DNA of 64,000 nucleotides, from the NCBI GenBank assembly GCA_003151115.1, contig PLWS01000002.1, positions 682,001-746,000 of the forward strand, read 5' to 3'. The DNA comes from Vulcanimicrobiota bacterium. GTDB taxonomy: Bacteria > Vulcanimicrobiota > Vulcanimicrobiia > Vulcanimicrobiales > Vulcanimicrobiaceae. Of this stretch, positions 13,599 to 53,969 are shown in pieces. Position numbers and translations under genes: made by a program. Each line of letters starts with the position of its first letter. The first letter of the stretch is position 1. A model generated the notes under the pieces. That model had not been told where the DNA came from, ran no database searches, and was given only the letters and a program-made list of their open reading frames with translations.

Positions 13599-15524
13599 AT
13601 GGTGCTAGAGCGGATCAACACCCCCGCCGACGTCAAAGCCCTGCTTCGCCCGGAGATCGACCTGCTGGCTCGCGAGATCCGCGAGCAACTGGTGGAGGTC
13701 TGCGCGCAAAACGGCGGGCATTTGGCTCCCAATCTCGGCGTGGTCGAGCTGACGCTCGCGCTTCATCGCACGCTCGATCTGCCGAAAGATCGCATCGTGT
13801 GGGACGTCAGCCACCAAACCTACGTGCACAAGCTGCTGACCGGGCGGCGCGATCGTTTTGCAACGCTCCGTAAAGGCGGCGGCATCTCCGGCTTCGCGAT
13901 GCGCAGCGAATCCGATTACGATTGTTTTGGCGCCGGACACGCCAGCACAGGCGTCTCGGCGGCGCTCGGCATGGCGCAAGCGCGCGATCTCACCGGCGGA
14001 AGAGAAACGATCGTCGCAGTGATCGGAGACGGCGCTCTCACAGGCGGCCTCGCCTATGAAGCGCTCAACAACGCCGGCCAGATGCGTACAAACTTTATCG
14101 TCATTCTCAACGACAACGAGATGTCGATCGCGCCCAATGTCGGCTCGATGGCGTCGTATCTTTCGGTGCTGCGCAGCAAGCCGTTTGCCAATCAGGTGCG
14201 CGCGACCGGCAAACAGGTGCTCGGCCACTTGCCGCTGGGCGGCATGGCGAAGAAAGCCTTTGAGTCGGCCGAACTCGGCGCAATGCGCTTTATCGCGCCG
14301 TCGGAAAAAGCCGCGGTCATCTTCGAAGAACTCGGCTTCCGCTATATCGGAGCAATCGACGGGCACAACTACGACGCGCTCGTCGATGCGTTAGAAACGG
14401 CCAAAGCCATTCCGCGTGCCGTGTTGCTGCACGTGCGCACCGTCAAAGGCAAGGGGTACGAACCGGCGGAGCGCGACTCTCGCACCTTCCACGGCATAGG
14501 AGCCAATGCGTTCGAACCGCGCGACGGCAGCAAGAAAGCCGCGGCACCTTCCGCGCCAAAATTCCAAGATGTCTTTGCCGACGCGATGATTGCGCTGGCG
14601 GAAAAAGATCCTCGCATCATCGGCATAACGGCGGCGATGCCCGACGGAACCGGACTCTCGAAGTTCGCCAAAGCTTTTCCCGAGCGGTATTTTGACGTCG
14701 GCATCGCCGAAGCGCACGCGGTTTGCTTTGCGGCGGGCGCGGCCACCAACGGTCTCAAGCCGGTCTGTGCGATCTACTCGACATTCTTGCAGCGCGCCTA
14801 TGACCAAGTCGTGCACGACGTCTGCGTTCAGAATCTTCCCGTTGTCTTTTGTATGGACCGGGCGGGCGTGGTCGGTGACGACGGACCGACGCATATGGGC
14901 TTGTACGACATCGCTTACATGCGCACGCTTCCGAACATGACATGCATGGCGCCGCGCAACGAAGAAGAGCTCTATCCGATGCTCGCACACGCGCTGTCGC
15001 TCGACGGGCCGGCCGCGATCCGCTACCCGCGCGGATCGACGAGCGGAAAACACCGCGATCCGGTCGCTCCAATCGTGCAGGGCCGCGGCGAAGTTTTGCG
15101 CACCCTTCGACAAACTCAGGATGACATCGGCGTTGCGATTCTGGCCTACGGTAACACCGTCGACATCGCACTCGACGCGTATGATTTGCTGCCGTCGGCA
15201 ACGGTCGTCAATATGCGGTTTGTAAAACCGATCGACGAAGCGCTGCTGCTCGAGCTGGCCGCAAACCATTCGCACTTCATTACGCTGGAAGAACATTCGC
15301 TCGCCGGCGGATTCGGCTCCGCGGTTGTGGAGTTCGTCGCCGACAATACTTTGAACGTCACGGTCGAACGCATCGGCATTCCTAACGTGCTCGTGCAGCA
15401 CGATTCGCAGCCGAAGCAGCGCGCGCTCTTCGGTCTGACGGCGGAAGAAGTTGCGCAACGCGTGCGGCGGGCTTGCGAATCTGCACCAAAGCGCGAACGC
15501 GAACTGATCGAGGAACCCGTATGA
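13599..15524 (+). CDS. dxs: 1-deoxy-D-xylulose-5-phosphate synthase
   Basis: 641 residues, slightly longer than the usual 620-640. It condenses pyruvate and glyceraldehyde 3-phosphate with thiamine diphosphate, the first step of the MEP isoprenoid pathway. Motifs: GAGHASTGVSAALG, the ThDP/Mg motif GDGALTGGLAYEALNNAG...NDNEMS, the catalytic-Glu region DVGIAEAHAVCFAAGAA, and C-terminal VNMRFVKPID with LEEHSLAGGFGSAV. GGAGG lies six bases before ATG 13599. Around residues 501-509 the sequence TLRQTQDD is encoded by a copy of a genomic repeat (separate entry). The stop overlaps secG (ATGA). Confidence 0.97.
   Translation: MVLERINTPADVKALLRPEIDLLAREIREQLVEVCAQNGGHLAPNLGVVELTLALHRTLDLPKDRIVWDVSHQTYVHKLLTGRRDRFATLRKGGGISGFAMRSESDYDCFGAGHASTGVSAALGMAQARDLTGGRETIVAVIGDGALTGGLAYEALNNAGQMRTNFIVILNDNEMSIAPNVGSMASYLSVLRSKPFANQVRATGKQVLGHLPLGGMAKKAFESAELGAMRFIAPSEKAAVIFEELGFRYIGAIDGHNYDALVDALETAKAIPRAVLLHVRTVKGKGYEPAERDSRTFHGIGANAFEPRDGSKKAAAPSAPKFQDVFADAMIALAEKDPRIIGITAAMPDGTGLSKFAKAFPERYFDVGIAEAHAVCFAAGAATNGLKPVCAIYSTFLQRAYDQVVHDVCVQNLPVVFCMDRAGVVGDDGPTHMGLYDIAYMRTLPNMTCMAPRNEEELYPMLAHALSLDGPAAIRYPRGSTSGKHRDPVAPIVQGRGEVLRTLRQTQDDIGVAILAYGNTVDIALDAYDLLPSATVVNMRFVKPIDEALLLELAANHSHFITLEEHSLAGGFGSAVVEFVADNTLNVTVERIGIPNVLVQHDSQPKQRALFGLTAEEVAQRVRRACESAPKRERELIEEPV
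15103..15126. repeat. Short copy of the repeat family inside dxs
   Basis: CCCTTCGACAAACTCAGG followed by ATGACA matches the edges of the palindromic repeat (CCTTCGACA ... CTCAGGATGACA) with the internal hairpin missing. It lies in frame in the dxs C-terminal third, between the transketolase pyrimidine-binding domain and the C-terminal domain, and contributes a few extra residues. Confidence 0.65.
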
Positions 15525-23460: not shown

Positions 23461-23511
23461 CGCCGCCTGCGGCACGAAGGCTAACCTTGCGGCGAAGCGA
23501 ACGCGAACCAC

Positions 23512-42986: not shown

Positions 42987-42989
42987 CGC

Positions 42990-43301
42990 TTAGTCGGGGT
43001 TTTTGCCCTCGAGGGCGTTTTCGAGGATTTTACCGGTCTTCGCGTCGATCCCGATTTCGCGCGTCTTGCCGCCCGACTTCATGTCGAAACTGTAGCGCAG
43101 GCCGCTTCCGCCGGGTTCTTTTTCCAGTTCTTCCGCAACGATTTTGCCGTTGGGGACTGCGCGAAGCGCAATTGCGCGTGCCTGAGTAAGAGTAATGGTC
43201 GCCTGCTTGGCAAACTGCTGGCCGGGATAAGCGGCGGCCGTTGCGATGGCCAGGGTGAACGCGGAGGCGAGGGCCGCCGCGGTGAGCGTGCTGTTTTTCA
43301 T
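42990..43301 (-). CDS. Small secreted PepSY-domain protein
   Basis: 103 residues from ATG 43301 (an ATG at 43313 is also in frame). Signal peptide ends near AAAYP; then one PepSY domain: ITLTQARAIALRAVPNGKIV, YSFDMKSGGKTREIGIDAKT, GKILENALEG. PepSY domains inhibit or sense peptidases and often accompany two-component systems. It lies between the histidine kinase and the pump gene with gaps of 43 and three bases, so it may be a periplasmic regulator of that kinase or a pump accessory; both are inference. Confidence 0.88.
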   Translation of the reverse strand: MKNSTLTAAALASAFTLAIATAAAYPGQQFAKQATITLTQARAIALRAVPNGKIVAEELEKEPGGSGLRYSFDMKSGGKTREIGIDAKTGKILENALEGKNPD

Positions 43302-43344
43302 AGGCCACAGCATACATGCCGAATGTTACTGCAACATGAACGGC

Positions 43345-51364: not shown

Positions 51365-52003
51365 GTGCGGCGAGTTGTTGCGGGTGCGGCCATTATTCTT
51401 GCTCTGGCCAGCTGCGGCCGGACCCTAGAACGAATACAAAAAATACTCGTTTACCAATCCGACCACCCAAAAGCCGTGTTGCGCGCGTATTCGTTTAGCA
51501 CGTACGCCATGAGCCCGGCGATCAAACCCGGCGATGCGGCGCTGGTCGACATTGCAGCGTACGTCAACGCCGGTCCGAAGCGGGAAGATGTTGTCCTATT
51601 CGTTCCGCCCAAGTCCGACAGAGTGTCGCAACGCCTCGCTGCGCAGCATCCTTTCGTCAAGCGAGTCGTCGCCATCGCAGGCGATCGTGCGAGCATTACC
51701 GGCGGGTGGCTGTACCTCAACGGCCGCTTACGGCACGAACGTTATATCGTGGGCGCTATCAACTATGACTTGCGGATACGCGACTATCGCATCGAATGCC
51801 GCTACCCGGATATGCGTGAATGGACATTGGTCAAACCCGTACAAGGGGCTCGTACTCCGCGCTCCGCGTGGCAAGCGCCGGATCGGGTTCCCATGGGATA
51901 TTATGTTGTTCTTGGAGACAACAGAAACGACTCGGAAGACTCTCACGTTTTCGGATTCGTCCACCGCAGCCTAATACTAGGCAAGGTCGTTGAAGTAATT
52001 TAG
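51365..52003 (+). CDS. S26 signal-peptidase-like protein lacking the catalytic serine
   Basis: 212 residues from GTG 51365; AGGAGG lies 14 bases upstream, an unusually long spacing. The N-terminus is a lipoprotein-like signal (IILALASCG, Cys17). The signal-peptidase I boxes are recognisable: [12 protein letters not shown] (box B), [17 protein letters not shown] with general-base Lys99 (box D) and [17 protein letters not shown] (box E). The nucleophile that should precede Met49 is Ala48, and the DNA (GCC ATG) leaves no ambiguity. It may be a pseudoenzyme or use a different residue. Its stop forms TTAG with the stop of the convergent carboxylase gene. Confidence 0.82.
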
Positions 52004-53763
52004 TCGGAAATTGTTACGAGCGCCGAGTTTGACTCAACGGTTTCGCCGGGCTGCGCGTGAACTTTCGAAACCGTACCCGATTTGTGGGCGCGGATTTCAT
52101 TCATCATTTTCATCGCCTCGACAACTGCTACGACCTGGCCTTCCGTCACTGTAGCTCCCTCGCCGACCGGCATTTCAACCACGGCGCCGTGCATTGGAGA
52201 TACGACGTCATTTCCGGTTACGGCCGACGCACGCTCGTTACGTGCCGCCCGACGCGGTTTTCGTGCACCGGCAGCCCTGTTCGGTCGATCAAACACGCGC
52301 ACATGGTAAAGCTTGTCGTCAACTTCGACGGAAATTGCTTCTGAACGCTTCCCTTCGACAGACGCGCTTACAGCGCGTTGCTCAGGGTGCCCTTCGACAG
52401 GGCGCGCGTCCGCGCGCCGCTCAGGATGACAAGTGGCAGCAAACGTTTCGAGTGTCGACGTCGTGTACGTCGCGTCCATCACCGGCGCATGATCGCAAAG
52501 CTGCCGCAGAAGAGGGAGTGTCGTCGGGACGCCTTCGATGACGTATTCATCGAGCGCGCGGCGAAAACGCGCGAGCGCCTGCGAGCGGTCGGGCGCCCAC
52601 ACGACGAGTTTGGCGATTAGCGAATCGTATTCGGAGCCGATCGTGAAACCGGGAAAGGCGGCGGAATCGATCCGCACACCCAAACCTCCGGGCTCTCGGT
52701 ACGTGGTGACGGTGCCCGGCGCGGGACGAAAATCGTTGGCCGGATCTTCGGCGTTGATGCGCCCCTCGATCGAATGTCCGCGGAAAGCGATCGCATTTTG
52801 GTCGTAGCCGAGCCGCTCGCCGGAAGCCGATCGGATCTGCTCGCGGACGAGGTCGAGGCCGCTGACCATTTCGGTCACGGTATGCTCGACTTGGATGCGC
52901 GTGTTCATCTCGAGGAAGTAGAACTCGTCGCCGCTGACCAGCCACTCGATCGTGCCGGCGCTGTCATAGCCGATCGCTTTGGCGGCTCGGATTCCGGCTT
53001 CGCGAATCCCTTCGCGAACGCGAGGCGAAACGGCAGGCGGCGTCTCTTCCCAAAGCTTCTGATGGCGGCGCTGCAGCGAGCAGTCGCGTTCACCGACGTC
53101 GAGTACCGTGCCGTGCTTGTCGGCTAAAATTTGGAGCTCGATGTGTTTGGGATTCTCCAGATACCGCTCGGCGTAGATTGCACCGTTTTTAAAATAGGCT
53201 TCGGCTTCGCGTTTGGCGGTGGAGAGCGCGGCGCCAAGTTCGTCAATCGTATAGGCGACCTTGAGGCCTTTCCCGCCGCCGCCTCCCGAAGCTTTGAGTG
53301 CGAGCGGCAGCCCGTATTTCTTTGCGGCGGCTTTTGCGCCTTCGGCGTCGATGATTTGCTCCGTCCCGCCCGGCACGATTGGAACGCCGGCGGCGATCAT
53401 CGCCTGCCGCGCGCGCATTTTGTCACCCATCGCATCGATCGCGTCTGGATGAGGGCCGACCCATGTAAAGCCCGCATCGGAAACCGCGCGCGCAAACGAC
53501 GCGTTTTCCGCGAGAAAACCGTAGCCGGGGTGGATGTATCGCGCGCCGGCGCGACCCGCGATCTCTAGAATCCGCTCGATATTCAGGTAACTTTGCGCCG
53601 GGCTTGCGGGGCCGAGCAGATAAGCTTCGTCGGCCAGCCGTACGTGCATCGCGTCGCGATCGATTTCGGAGTATACGGCGATGGTTTGCAAGCCCATCTC
53701 GCGGGCCGTGCGCATGACGCGTACCGCGATTTCCCCGCGGTTGGCGACTAAGAGTTTTTCCAA
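52000..53763 (-). CDS. Acyl-CoA (propionyl/acetyl) carboxylase alpha subunit: biotin carboxylase plus BCCP
   Basis: 587 residues from TTG 53763. Biotin carboxylase domain about 1-440 (VANRGEIAVRVMRTAREMG, the ATP-grasp loop KASGGGGGKGLKVA, EMNTRIQVEHTVTEMVSG). C-terminal biotinyl domain with VVEAMKMMNEIRAH (the Lys is biotinylated). Between them about 34 residues (about 444-477) are encoded by two tandem copies of a palindromic repeat. It carboxylates biotin for transfer to acyl-CoA by the beta subunit at 54760. With mutase and epimerase nearby, propionyl-CoA is the likely substrate. Confidence 0.94.
   Translation of the reverse strand: MEKLLVANRGEIAVRVMRTAREMGLQTIAVYSEIDRDAMHVRLADEAYLLGPASPAQSYLNIERILEIAGRAGARYIHPGYGFLAENASFARAVSDAGFTWVGPHPDAIDAMGDKMRARQAMIAAGVPIVPGGTEQIIDAEGAKAAAKKYGLPLALKASGGGGGKGLKVAYTIDELGAALSTAKREAEAYFKNGAIYAERYLENPKHIELQILADKHGTVLDVGERDCSLQRRHQKLWEETPPAVSPRVREGIREAGIRAAKAIGYDSAGTIEWLVSGDEFYFLEMNTRIQVEHTVTEMVSGLDLVREQIRSASGERLGYDQNAIAFRGHSIEGRINAEDPANDFRPAPGTVTTYREPGGLGVRIDSAAFPGFTIGSEYDSLIAKLVVWAPDRSQALARFRRALDEYVIEGVPTTLPLLRQLCDHAPVMDATYTTSTLETFAATCHPERRADARPVEGHPEQRAVSASVEGKRSEAISVEVDDKLYHVRVFDRPNRAAGARKPRRAARNERASAVTGNDVVSPMHGAVVEMPVGEGATVTEGQVVAVVEAMKMMNEIRAHKSGTVSKVHAQPGETVESNSALVTISD
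52351..52431. repeat. Tandem palindromic repeat pair inside the carboxylase alpha gene
   Basis: Two units: 52351-52389 (CCCTTCGACA, hairpin ACGCGC-TTACA-GCGCGT, TGCTCAGGGTG) and 52390-52431 (CCCTTCGACA, hairpin GGCGCGCG-TC-CGCGCGCC, GCTCAGGATGACA). They are read in frame on the minus strand as peptides beginning CHPERRADARPVEG and HPEQRAVSASVEG. That HPER/HPEQ plus VEG peptide signature is commonly seen where such intergenic-type repeats are translated. Confidence 0.85.
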
Positions 53764-53969
53764 GTACGCTTTCGCTCTGGCCTCGACAAGCTCGGCCGTG
53801 GTTCGACCGGGGCGCCTTGTGGCGCCCGCTCACCATGACACCAATCGGTGCGCGCCGACCAATCGCGGCCGGATTCTTTCCAACGCGATTTGGGCGCCGG
53901 CGCGTCGTCGCGCGATTCCAGGAATTCGAGCGCGGCGACGATCGCGAGGATGTCGTCCTCGTCGCTCAT
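53748..53969 (-). CDS. Small protein upstream of carboxylase, possible accessory subunit
   Basis: 73 residues. An acidic helical N-terminus (MSDEDDILAIVAALEFLES) and a linker lead to SRWKESGRDWSA. The pattern of a helical start plus a W-x-x-x-GR motif resembles small accessory subunits found with acyl-CoA carboxylases, and the gene overlaps the carboxylase alpha start by 16 bases and the fabI stop by four. This fits but does not prove such a role. Its last 27 or so residues (CHGERAPQGAPVEP...) are encoded by a degenerate copy of the palindromic repeat, so the original C-terminus has probably been replaced. Confidence 0.6.
   Translation of the reverse strand: MSDEDDILAIVAALEFLESRDDAPAPKSRWKESGRDWSARTDWCHGERAPQGAPVEPRPSLSRPERKRTWKNS
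53781..53840. repeat. Degenerate palindromic repeat in the small gene's 3' end
   Basis: Contains CCTCGACAAGCTCGG and then GTTCGACCG, a hairpin (GGGCGCC 53810-53816 with GGCGCCC 53821-53827, loop TTGT), and GCTCACCATGACA. The order and edges match the copies at 52351-52431 with several substitutions. Confidence 0.65.

Follow-up and report, generated by a model that had tools for sequence, protein, structure and literature searches.

Repetitive extragenic palindromic sequences (REPs) with a CGTC tag were described by Di Nocera et al. (2013; PMC3733652) as short palindromes with an unpaired CGTC, TGTC or CCTC tag and without a dedicated transposase. According to these authors they occur in five phyla including Bacteroidetes, near the 3' ends of genes and in gaps between convergent genes, the latter being reported there for REPs in general. 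They are characterized by a stem of 8-9 bp with complementary A-T at the first and second position, a loop of 4-5 nt and an unpaired tail that is mostly CCA; their dimers are predominantly head-to-head, with a negligible number of head-to-tail dimers. CGTC-tagged REPs also decorate proteins, where linkers and loops are named as tolerant places and insertions into linkers may be neutral (PMC3733652). REPs and REPINs of another type carry a GTAG tag and flank a RAYT gene (PMC3733652). The Rickettsia palindromic elements (RPE), as outlined in PMC10969869, are about 150 bp long, contain an open reading frame for a conserved peptide and are located in frame in unrelated protein genes; RPE-4 and RPE-6 are themselves listed as CGTC repeats in PMC3733652. 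The text of PMC3733652 already covers REPs inside proteins, the argument from linkers and the lack of a dedicated transposase, so these aspects of the locus presented here are not new. In-frame insertion is ordinary for REPs, while the repeat represents a variant whose orientation bias deserves attention.

The window, i.e. the whole stretch of 64,000 nucleotides that was analysed, contains a pair of palindromic units antisense to a gene for a biotin-dependent carboxylase (Table 1). On the plus strand unit A reads CCCTTCGACAG-hairpin-GCTCAGGGTG and unit B CCCTTCGACAG-hairpin-GCTCAGGATGACA. The units are arranged in tandem and in one orientation and comprise 81 nt, which corresponds to 27 codons. 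The first-pass annotation had described two tandem units with different hairpins and identical edges. The tandem and the differing hairpins stood, and the left edge CCCTTCGACAG is exactly common to both units, whereas the right edges (CTCAGGGTG and CTCAGGATGACA, respectively) are near-identical only. Single-strand folding compared with shuffled sequences gave z -2.79 for unit A and -0.22 for unit B alone; both units together yielded -1.43 on the plus strand and -1.99 on the coding strand. Thus only unit A folded clearly better than shuffles. With Rfam 15 at gathering score no matches were obtained in the window or in L073, L093, L094 and L120. We consider it probable that this 81-nt pair represents a copy of a palindromic repeat, REP-like in kind, which belongs to the genus; it would have resided in the linker of the carboxylase since before the genus split, and its encoded peptide would be a by-product.

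Table 1. Positions of the repeat copies and of the genes that host them, numbered from the first letter of the window
Feature	Position	Strand	Length	Remarks
dxs, 1-deoxy-D-xylulose-5-phosphate synthase	13599..15524	+		TIGR00204, 763 bits; hosts short unit
Short unit CCCTTCGACAAACTCAGGATGACA	15103..15126	+	24 nt	in frame inside dxs
Biotin carboxylase + biotinyl domain fusion	52000..53763	-	587 aa	ORF and Pfam
Unit A (stem-loop 1)	52351..52389	+	39 nt	minus strand encodes HPEQRAVSASVEG
Unit B (stem-loop 2)	52390..52431	+	42 nt	conserved 3' end CTCAGGATGACA; minus strand encodes CHPERRADARPVEG
Third copy, GGCCTCGAC..GCTCGGCC then GGTTCGAC..CTCACCATGACA	53779..53840	+		just upstream of carboxylase gene

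The edge pattern given by the first-pass annotation matched once in the window and never in 100 shuffles of it; in the genome there were 14 matches, and none for the reversed control. The right end CTCAGGATGACA was present in 100 copies (77 on the plus, 23 on the minus strand; complete list) in 2,555,168 bases with again no hit for the reversed control, which confirms a dispersed repeat. The anatomy of the repeat was studied in a sample of 808,976 bases made up of 40 stretches chosen around CTCAGGATGACA copies and the window, where CTCAGG[A/G]TGACA was encountered at 100 sites. Inspected by eye, a common composite consists of stem-loop 1 followed by stem-loop 2 (TCCTTCGACAAGCTCAGGATGACA), and the pair in the window has this genome-wide form. 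Stem-loop 1 is composed, also by eye, of CCCYTCGAY, a GC-rich hairpin and CTCGGGG, or of a version such as GGGCCTCG..CTCGGCC. Sometimes a complete extra hairpin unit is nested between the arms of stem-loop 1 (L039-L058 and L071-L090, e.g. L048 and L071). At one copy (G000:C8 about 167396-167478; L075:12397-12479) four full TCACCATGACACACTTGGG plus a partial one follow behind the element, as growth by slippage would give.

Short units with the core TTCGACNNGCTCA showed pairing of two flanking positions in 32/35 and 33/35 cases in the own genome and in 36/38 each in congeners; the pairs used C-G as well as G-C, with shuffle means of about 19. A corresponding analysis of stem-loop 1 with a loose pattern (1,003 sites, probably mostly chance) revealed no clear pairing excess. 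The second position of the repeat stem was T-A in 29/35 units of the own genome and 34/38 of the congeners, the first mostly G/T (30/35 and 31/38). The stem is interrupted by a bulge, and many foreign loci read AT at the first positions when inspected by eye.

Gene context of the 100 sites was taken from a home-made gene caller: 16 sites were inside called genes, 82 between two genes and 2 at the edges of stretches. Convergent gaps held 31 of the 82 intergenic sites, yet they accounted for 39 of 305 gaps overall. A design of the repeat that is friendly to coding was not supported, as 3.38 of 6 frames were open compared with 3.29 in shuffles. The length of the composite was divisible by three in 3 of 13 cases.

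Compared with CGTC-tagged REPs, the repeat has a tag complement of the TGTC type at +5 to +8 in 70 of 77 distinct short units, units inside coding regions (carboxylase and dxs), and no transposase as far as Y1_Tnp was searched. On the other hand, a variable inner part, often with a second hairpin, replaces the loop of 4-5 nt; in the own genome the tag strand mostly has a CCC tail, with G prevailing at positions -5 to -7 (24/35, 26/35 and 21/35); and in the stretches sampled from own genome and congeners a head-to-tail order was seen for 100 of 104 neighbouring pairs spaced by up to 150 nt. Composites of two stems and an orientation that follows GC skew in one region are further differences. 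Because loop length, tail and head-to-head pairing deviate, we do not file the repeat as a CGTC-tagged member, even though it works like one. A genome of another genus of the same family (G040, genus g35) holds 409 short units with AGG/AGC arm variants and had no Y1_Tnp match; unlike in the sampled own and congener stretches, many neighbours listed there are opposite in orientation.

Pfam placed Biotin_carb_C at residues 333-439 and Biotin_lipoyl at residues 519-585 of the 587-aa protein. The repeat occupies codons 445-471 between them and the frame stays open, so that the location assigned by the first-pass annotation, in frame between the biotin carboxylase and the biotinyl domain, was correct. 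Its count of about 34 inserted residues has to be replaced by 27 according to the coordinates. Moreover, the residues do not constitute a net gain in length: the linker comprises 79 aa in the window and 65-91 aa among the 19 linkers without element motifs (see below). Since the window protein is not longer than its relatives, the units form part of a length-variable linker. An AlphaFold2 model from the single sequence had a mean pLDDT of 37.9 and was not used.

The carboxylase was searched in 78 genomes, the own and 77 relatives, and the best loci were fetched. Of 31 linkers tried 29 were readable, the exceptions being L029 and L035. All seven linkers examined from the same genus (L009, which is the window, L010-L014 and L250) carry element motifs; L250 is the second copy from G005, a genome marked as 5% contaminated. 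L010 holds the left motif only and lacks exactly the 39-nt unit. In G002, the remaining genome of the genus, the search yielded no close carboxylase orthologue. Among the 22 linkers from other genera 3 contain element-derived DNA of their own and 19 do not. The element is in opposite orientation in L015 (G033), while elements in mixed orientation are found in L023 (G015) and L020 (G007); residues and unit make-up of all three differ from the genus version. The linkers of the 29 orthologues (6,645 nt) contained 24 element motifs, whereas the gene body next to them, 36,250 nt in total, contained 1. Thus the view of the linker between the domains as a tolerant place is supported by the domain positions and the motif content of the orthologues. 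We read the distribution as a tolerant linker that would have captured element DNA several times, in addition to inheritance within the genus.

Orthologues of unit A were identified in G006, G001, G003 and G005:C20 with arms that had changed in pairs. The hairpin was different in each of the five linkers. Both sides had changed in 5 of 14 pairs, a covariation that rests on five sequences; this value was reached by 1 of 500 shuffles, and slid controls gave 0-2. Further pair types amounted to 6 with a shuffle mean of 5.8, hence there was no excess. The second unit is GTTCGACAAGCTCACCATGACA in L011, L012 and L250 and a variant of GTTCGACAAGCTCACCATGACA in L014, and its frame varies in the genus: it is read as VMVSLSN.. 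in these four linkers versus CHPE... Judged from these linkers, the copy inside the gene is still changing like intergenic repeat DNA, in that pairing appears to be kept and residues do not. RPE likewise are palindromic repeats in frame in unrelated protein genes. Yet here the insert is 81 nt, congeners use two different reading frames for the second unit with no conserved peptide, and the number of open frames does not exceed that of shuffled sequences.

As all seven same-genus linkers carry units, the carboxylase copy is old in the genus and does not represent a recent jump. The first-pass annotation had taken it as a demonstration that the repeat is mobile. The repeat family does turn over between related species (see below), but the carboxylase copy itself is no proof of movement. 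The sequence of events may have been as follows. Insertion of a copy into the linker would have preceded the split of the genus. This copy would have been stop-free and a multiple of three, and it was presumably kept because the linker is unconstrained. Later, units in the linker would have been lost, replaced or mutated as at intergenic copies. In G005:C9 a single unit of exactly 39 nt is missing, an outcome that would be expected from recombination or slippage at the direct repeats CCCTTCGACAG. The encoded peptide would be a by-product with no function.

Turnover was evaluated in C8:75000-182471, which has 34 element clusters and allowed 65 cluster-by-congener comparisons with five congeners. 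The motif was present in 35 and absent in 30 of them, although 3 of the absent cases span 1.6-2.4 kb between the flanks and are not clean. Empty sites were recognized by eye, for example in G001, where the site is flanked by TTTCCGGT and GTGAAAG, and in G002 and G006, where it lies immediately behind CGTACGTAG. No target-site duplication was visible at the junctions read by eye. Because neither a mobiliser nor a target-site duplication was identified, movement rests on presence and absence only, and at any given site loss would look the same as gain.

The window holds two further copies beyond the finding of the first-pass annotation (Table 1). At the short unit, the dxs of the window exceeds that of G003 and G005 by six codons; the site is a replacement of 27 nt versus 9 nt in G003/G005 and not a bare insertion. 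The third copy is absent from the spacer of G005:C20, while G005:C9 has a match at the corresponding place (73398-73459). Apart from the repeat, 314 nt of the window (42989-43302) are absent at the matching place in G005:C9, and at about position 23472 G005 and G003 are longer by 292 and 270 nt, respectively. By eye, the additional sequence may hold a minus-strand coding region for a protein rich in Lys, Arg and Ala, which the window genome could have lost or failed to acquire.

The orientation of the copies was uneven between contigs. Ratios of plus to minus strand for CTCAGGATGACA were 35:1 on C8, 8:0 on C7, 16:0 on C4 and 13:17 on C6, and for CTCA[CG][CG][AG]TGACA in the sampled stretches 65:1, 19:0, 19:4 and 21:22, respectively. 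Called genes there are on both strands with a plus share of 55% on C8, 57% on C7 and 48% on C4. Stretches syntenic to C8 with positive skew had ratios of 35:0 in G006, 22:0 in G005 and 12:0 in G001, while G002 with negative skew had 0:20 and G003 with weak skew 6:3. The stretches involved are C8 and C7 of G000 and the syntenic G002:C2, G005:C13, G006:C87 and G001:C61. With elements masked and an absolute skew of at least 0.03, the G-rich strand held 47/51 clusters in the own genome and 61/63 in congeners, in total 108/114, in a set that is largely one syntenic region with non-independent congeners and stretches chosen around copies. Below 0.03 there was no bias (own 35:34, congeners 26:30). 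In the strong-skew region the occupied sites differ between species (own and four congeners) even though nearly all copies lie on the G-rich strand. The dnaA gene is located on C5, which has only 3 copies.

A supposed strand switch of the elements in G003:C1 was rejected as local counts showed both strands. No tRNA was detected near this position in four stretches scanned, and neither parS nor exact DnaA boxes in G003:C1:600-800 kb. For dif-like sites, even the best matches in the stretches sampled from the own genome deviated at 9 of 28 positions. Neither 'leading strand' nor 'replichore' is used in the main text of PMC3733652, and a search of open-licence literature for palindromic repeats oriented by leading strand or GC skew returned only titles that looked unrelated. 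The orientation result fits insertion coupled to the replication fork and selection on orientation alike.

The first-pass annotation had suggested looking for a transposase-like gene with matching ends, and in the Y1_Tnp family, the one that was searched, none was found. The window genome yielded no Y1_Tnp hit even with a cutoff of E<=10, nor was the family found in any of the seven genomes of the genus, one of which (G004) has a completeness of just 56%. Of the 78 genomes, 26 carried the short unit with its tag, and all 26 belong to the same family; Y1_Tnp was present in 18 of 78. G026 and G032 were the only genomes with both. The longer pattern of the first-pass annotation was present in 18 of 78 genomes and overlapped with the Y1_Tnp set in G026 only.

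The exact 23-mer CCTTCGACAAGCTCAGGATGACA, the core of the repeat, was found in at least 116 stretches of a contig collection, while with equal base frequencies 257 Gb would be expected to contain about 0.007 occurrences. Among 80 loci listed, sorted by title, 41 belong to Bacteroidota, 16 to Eremiobacterota/WPS-2 and 7 to Verrucomicrobiota; ten other groups contribute one or two loci each, and 4 loci are unassigned. Many of these loci are from metagenome assemblies with possible contamination, but isolates (Pedobacter, Mucilaginibacter, Flavobacterium) are included. Y1_Tnp was present in 25 of 36 genomes taken from the 23-mer scan. However, the 21-mer was near Y1_Tnp in none of 42 fetched loci (30 from 23-mer genomes, 12 from relatives) within the fetched flanks. 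Thus Y1_Tnp/RAYT as a mobiliser found no support in the genus in spite of the 25 foreign genomes with the family. The repeat resembles the published GTAG REPs and REPINs with RAYT, which are seen as non-autonomous mobile DNA, in that it forms extragenic hairpins of high copy number; unlike them it has a TGTC-type tag, no Y1_Tnp found in the genus and no copy at the 42 Y1_Tnp loci. Among the papers listed by searches of open-licence literature with exact 12- to 16-mers of the repeat, all looked unrelated by title, and nothing was retrieved on repetitive extragenic palindromic sequences in Eremiobacterota.

Other origins of the 81 nt have to be weighed against a resident copy of the repeat. Chance similarity or local slippage with no dispersed element could be imagined from two units in tandem 39 nt apart, but the absence of the pattern from 100 window shuffles and its 14 genomic matches, with 100 for the right end and none for the reversed controls, have already refuted it, and we attach practically no weight to it. 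An ancestral functional protein segment that merely resembles the repeat would explain why 7/7 same-genus linkers keep unit-like sequence and why the edges of unit A are kept as residues, HPE..VEG in most and HPEQGAVGARDEG in G003. We searched for what the first-pass annotation had named as its hallmark, the same residues in distant homologues: 19 of the 29 readable linkers are free of motifs and the 3 with elements from other genera differ, so the annotation's reading as an insertion was not refuted. As, in addition, the frame of the second unit differs among congeners (CHPE.. vs VMVSLSN..), the arms change with pairing kept and the same DNA exists about 100 times elsewhere in the genome, a protein segment of this kind is very improbable.

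The nature of the repeat itself also permits different views. In a RAYT/Y1-transposase REP a single-strand hairpin would be pasted into the lagging-strand template, which would leave an orientation bias and no target-site duplication. Hairpins, junctions with no visible duplication, an orientation that follows GC skew and Y1_Tnp in 25/36 genomes with the 23-mer agree with this, and lagging-strand targeting is described for the enzyme class in PMC6006769. Nevertheless, the failure to find Y1_Tnp in seven genomes of the genus, the coincidence of short unit and Y1_Tnp in G026 and G032 only (26/78 and 18/78 genomes), the 409 copies in G040 with no Y1_Tnp match and the 0/42 fetched Y1_Tnp loci make it unlikely. 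We are less dismissive of, yet still doubt, an element under selection that serves the host as a terminator at convergent genes or as a strand-oriented chromosome signal and is not selfish. It would account for the excess in convergent gaps (31/82 vs 39/305), the 108/114 clusters on the G-rich strand at an absolute skew of at least 0.03 and the covariation of the arms. However, high turnover among congeners (absent in 30/65 comparisons), a balanced orientation where the skew is weaker (35:34 in the own genome, 26:30 in congeners) and copies inside genes argue against it, and convergent gaps are reported for REPs in general in the text of PMC3733652. It may be envisaged that the way in which the repeat spreads or is retained is coupled to replication direction, with no Y1 transposase involved, a notion that we put forward tentatively and regard as somewhat improbable. 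If true, it would mean either a fork-coupled mobile element that uses another enzyme or a widespread strand-oriented chromosome signal.

Taken together, we favor the view that the palindromic pair is a long-resident copy of the repeat of the genus. The carboxylase adds an example to the REPs in proteins, as one linker has element-derived DNA in four genera of one family. The orientation along the skew, the genus with no Y1 transposase found and the 23-mer across phyla bear on a question left open in the text of PMC3733652, namely how REPs without a transposase spread.
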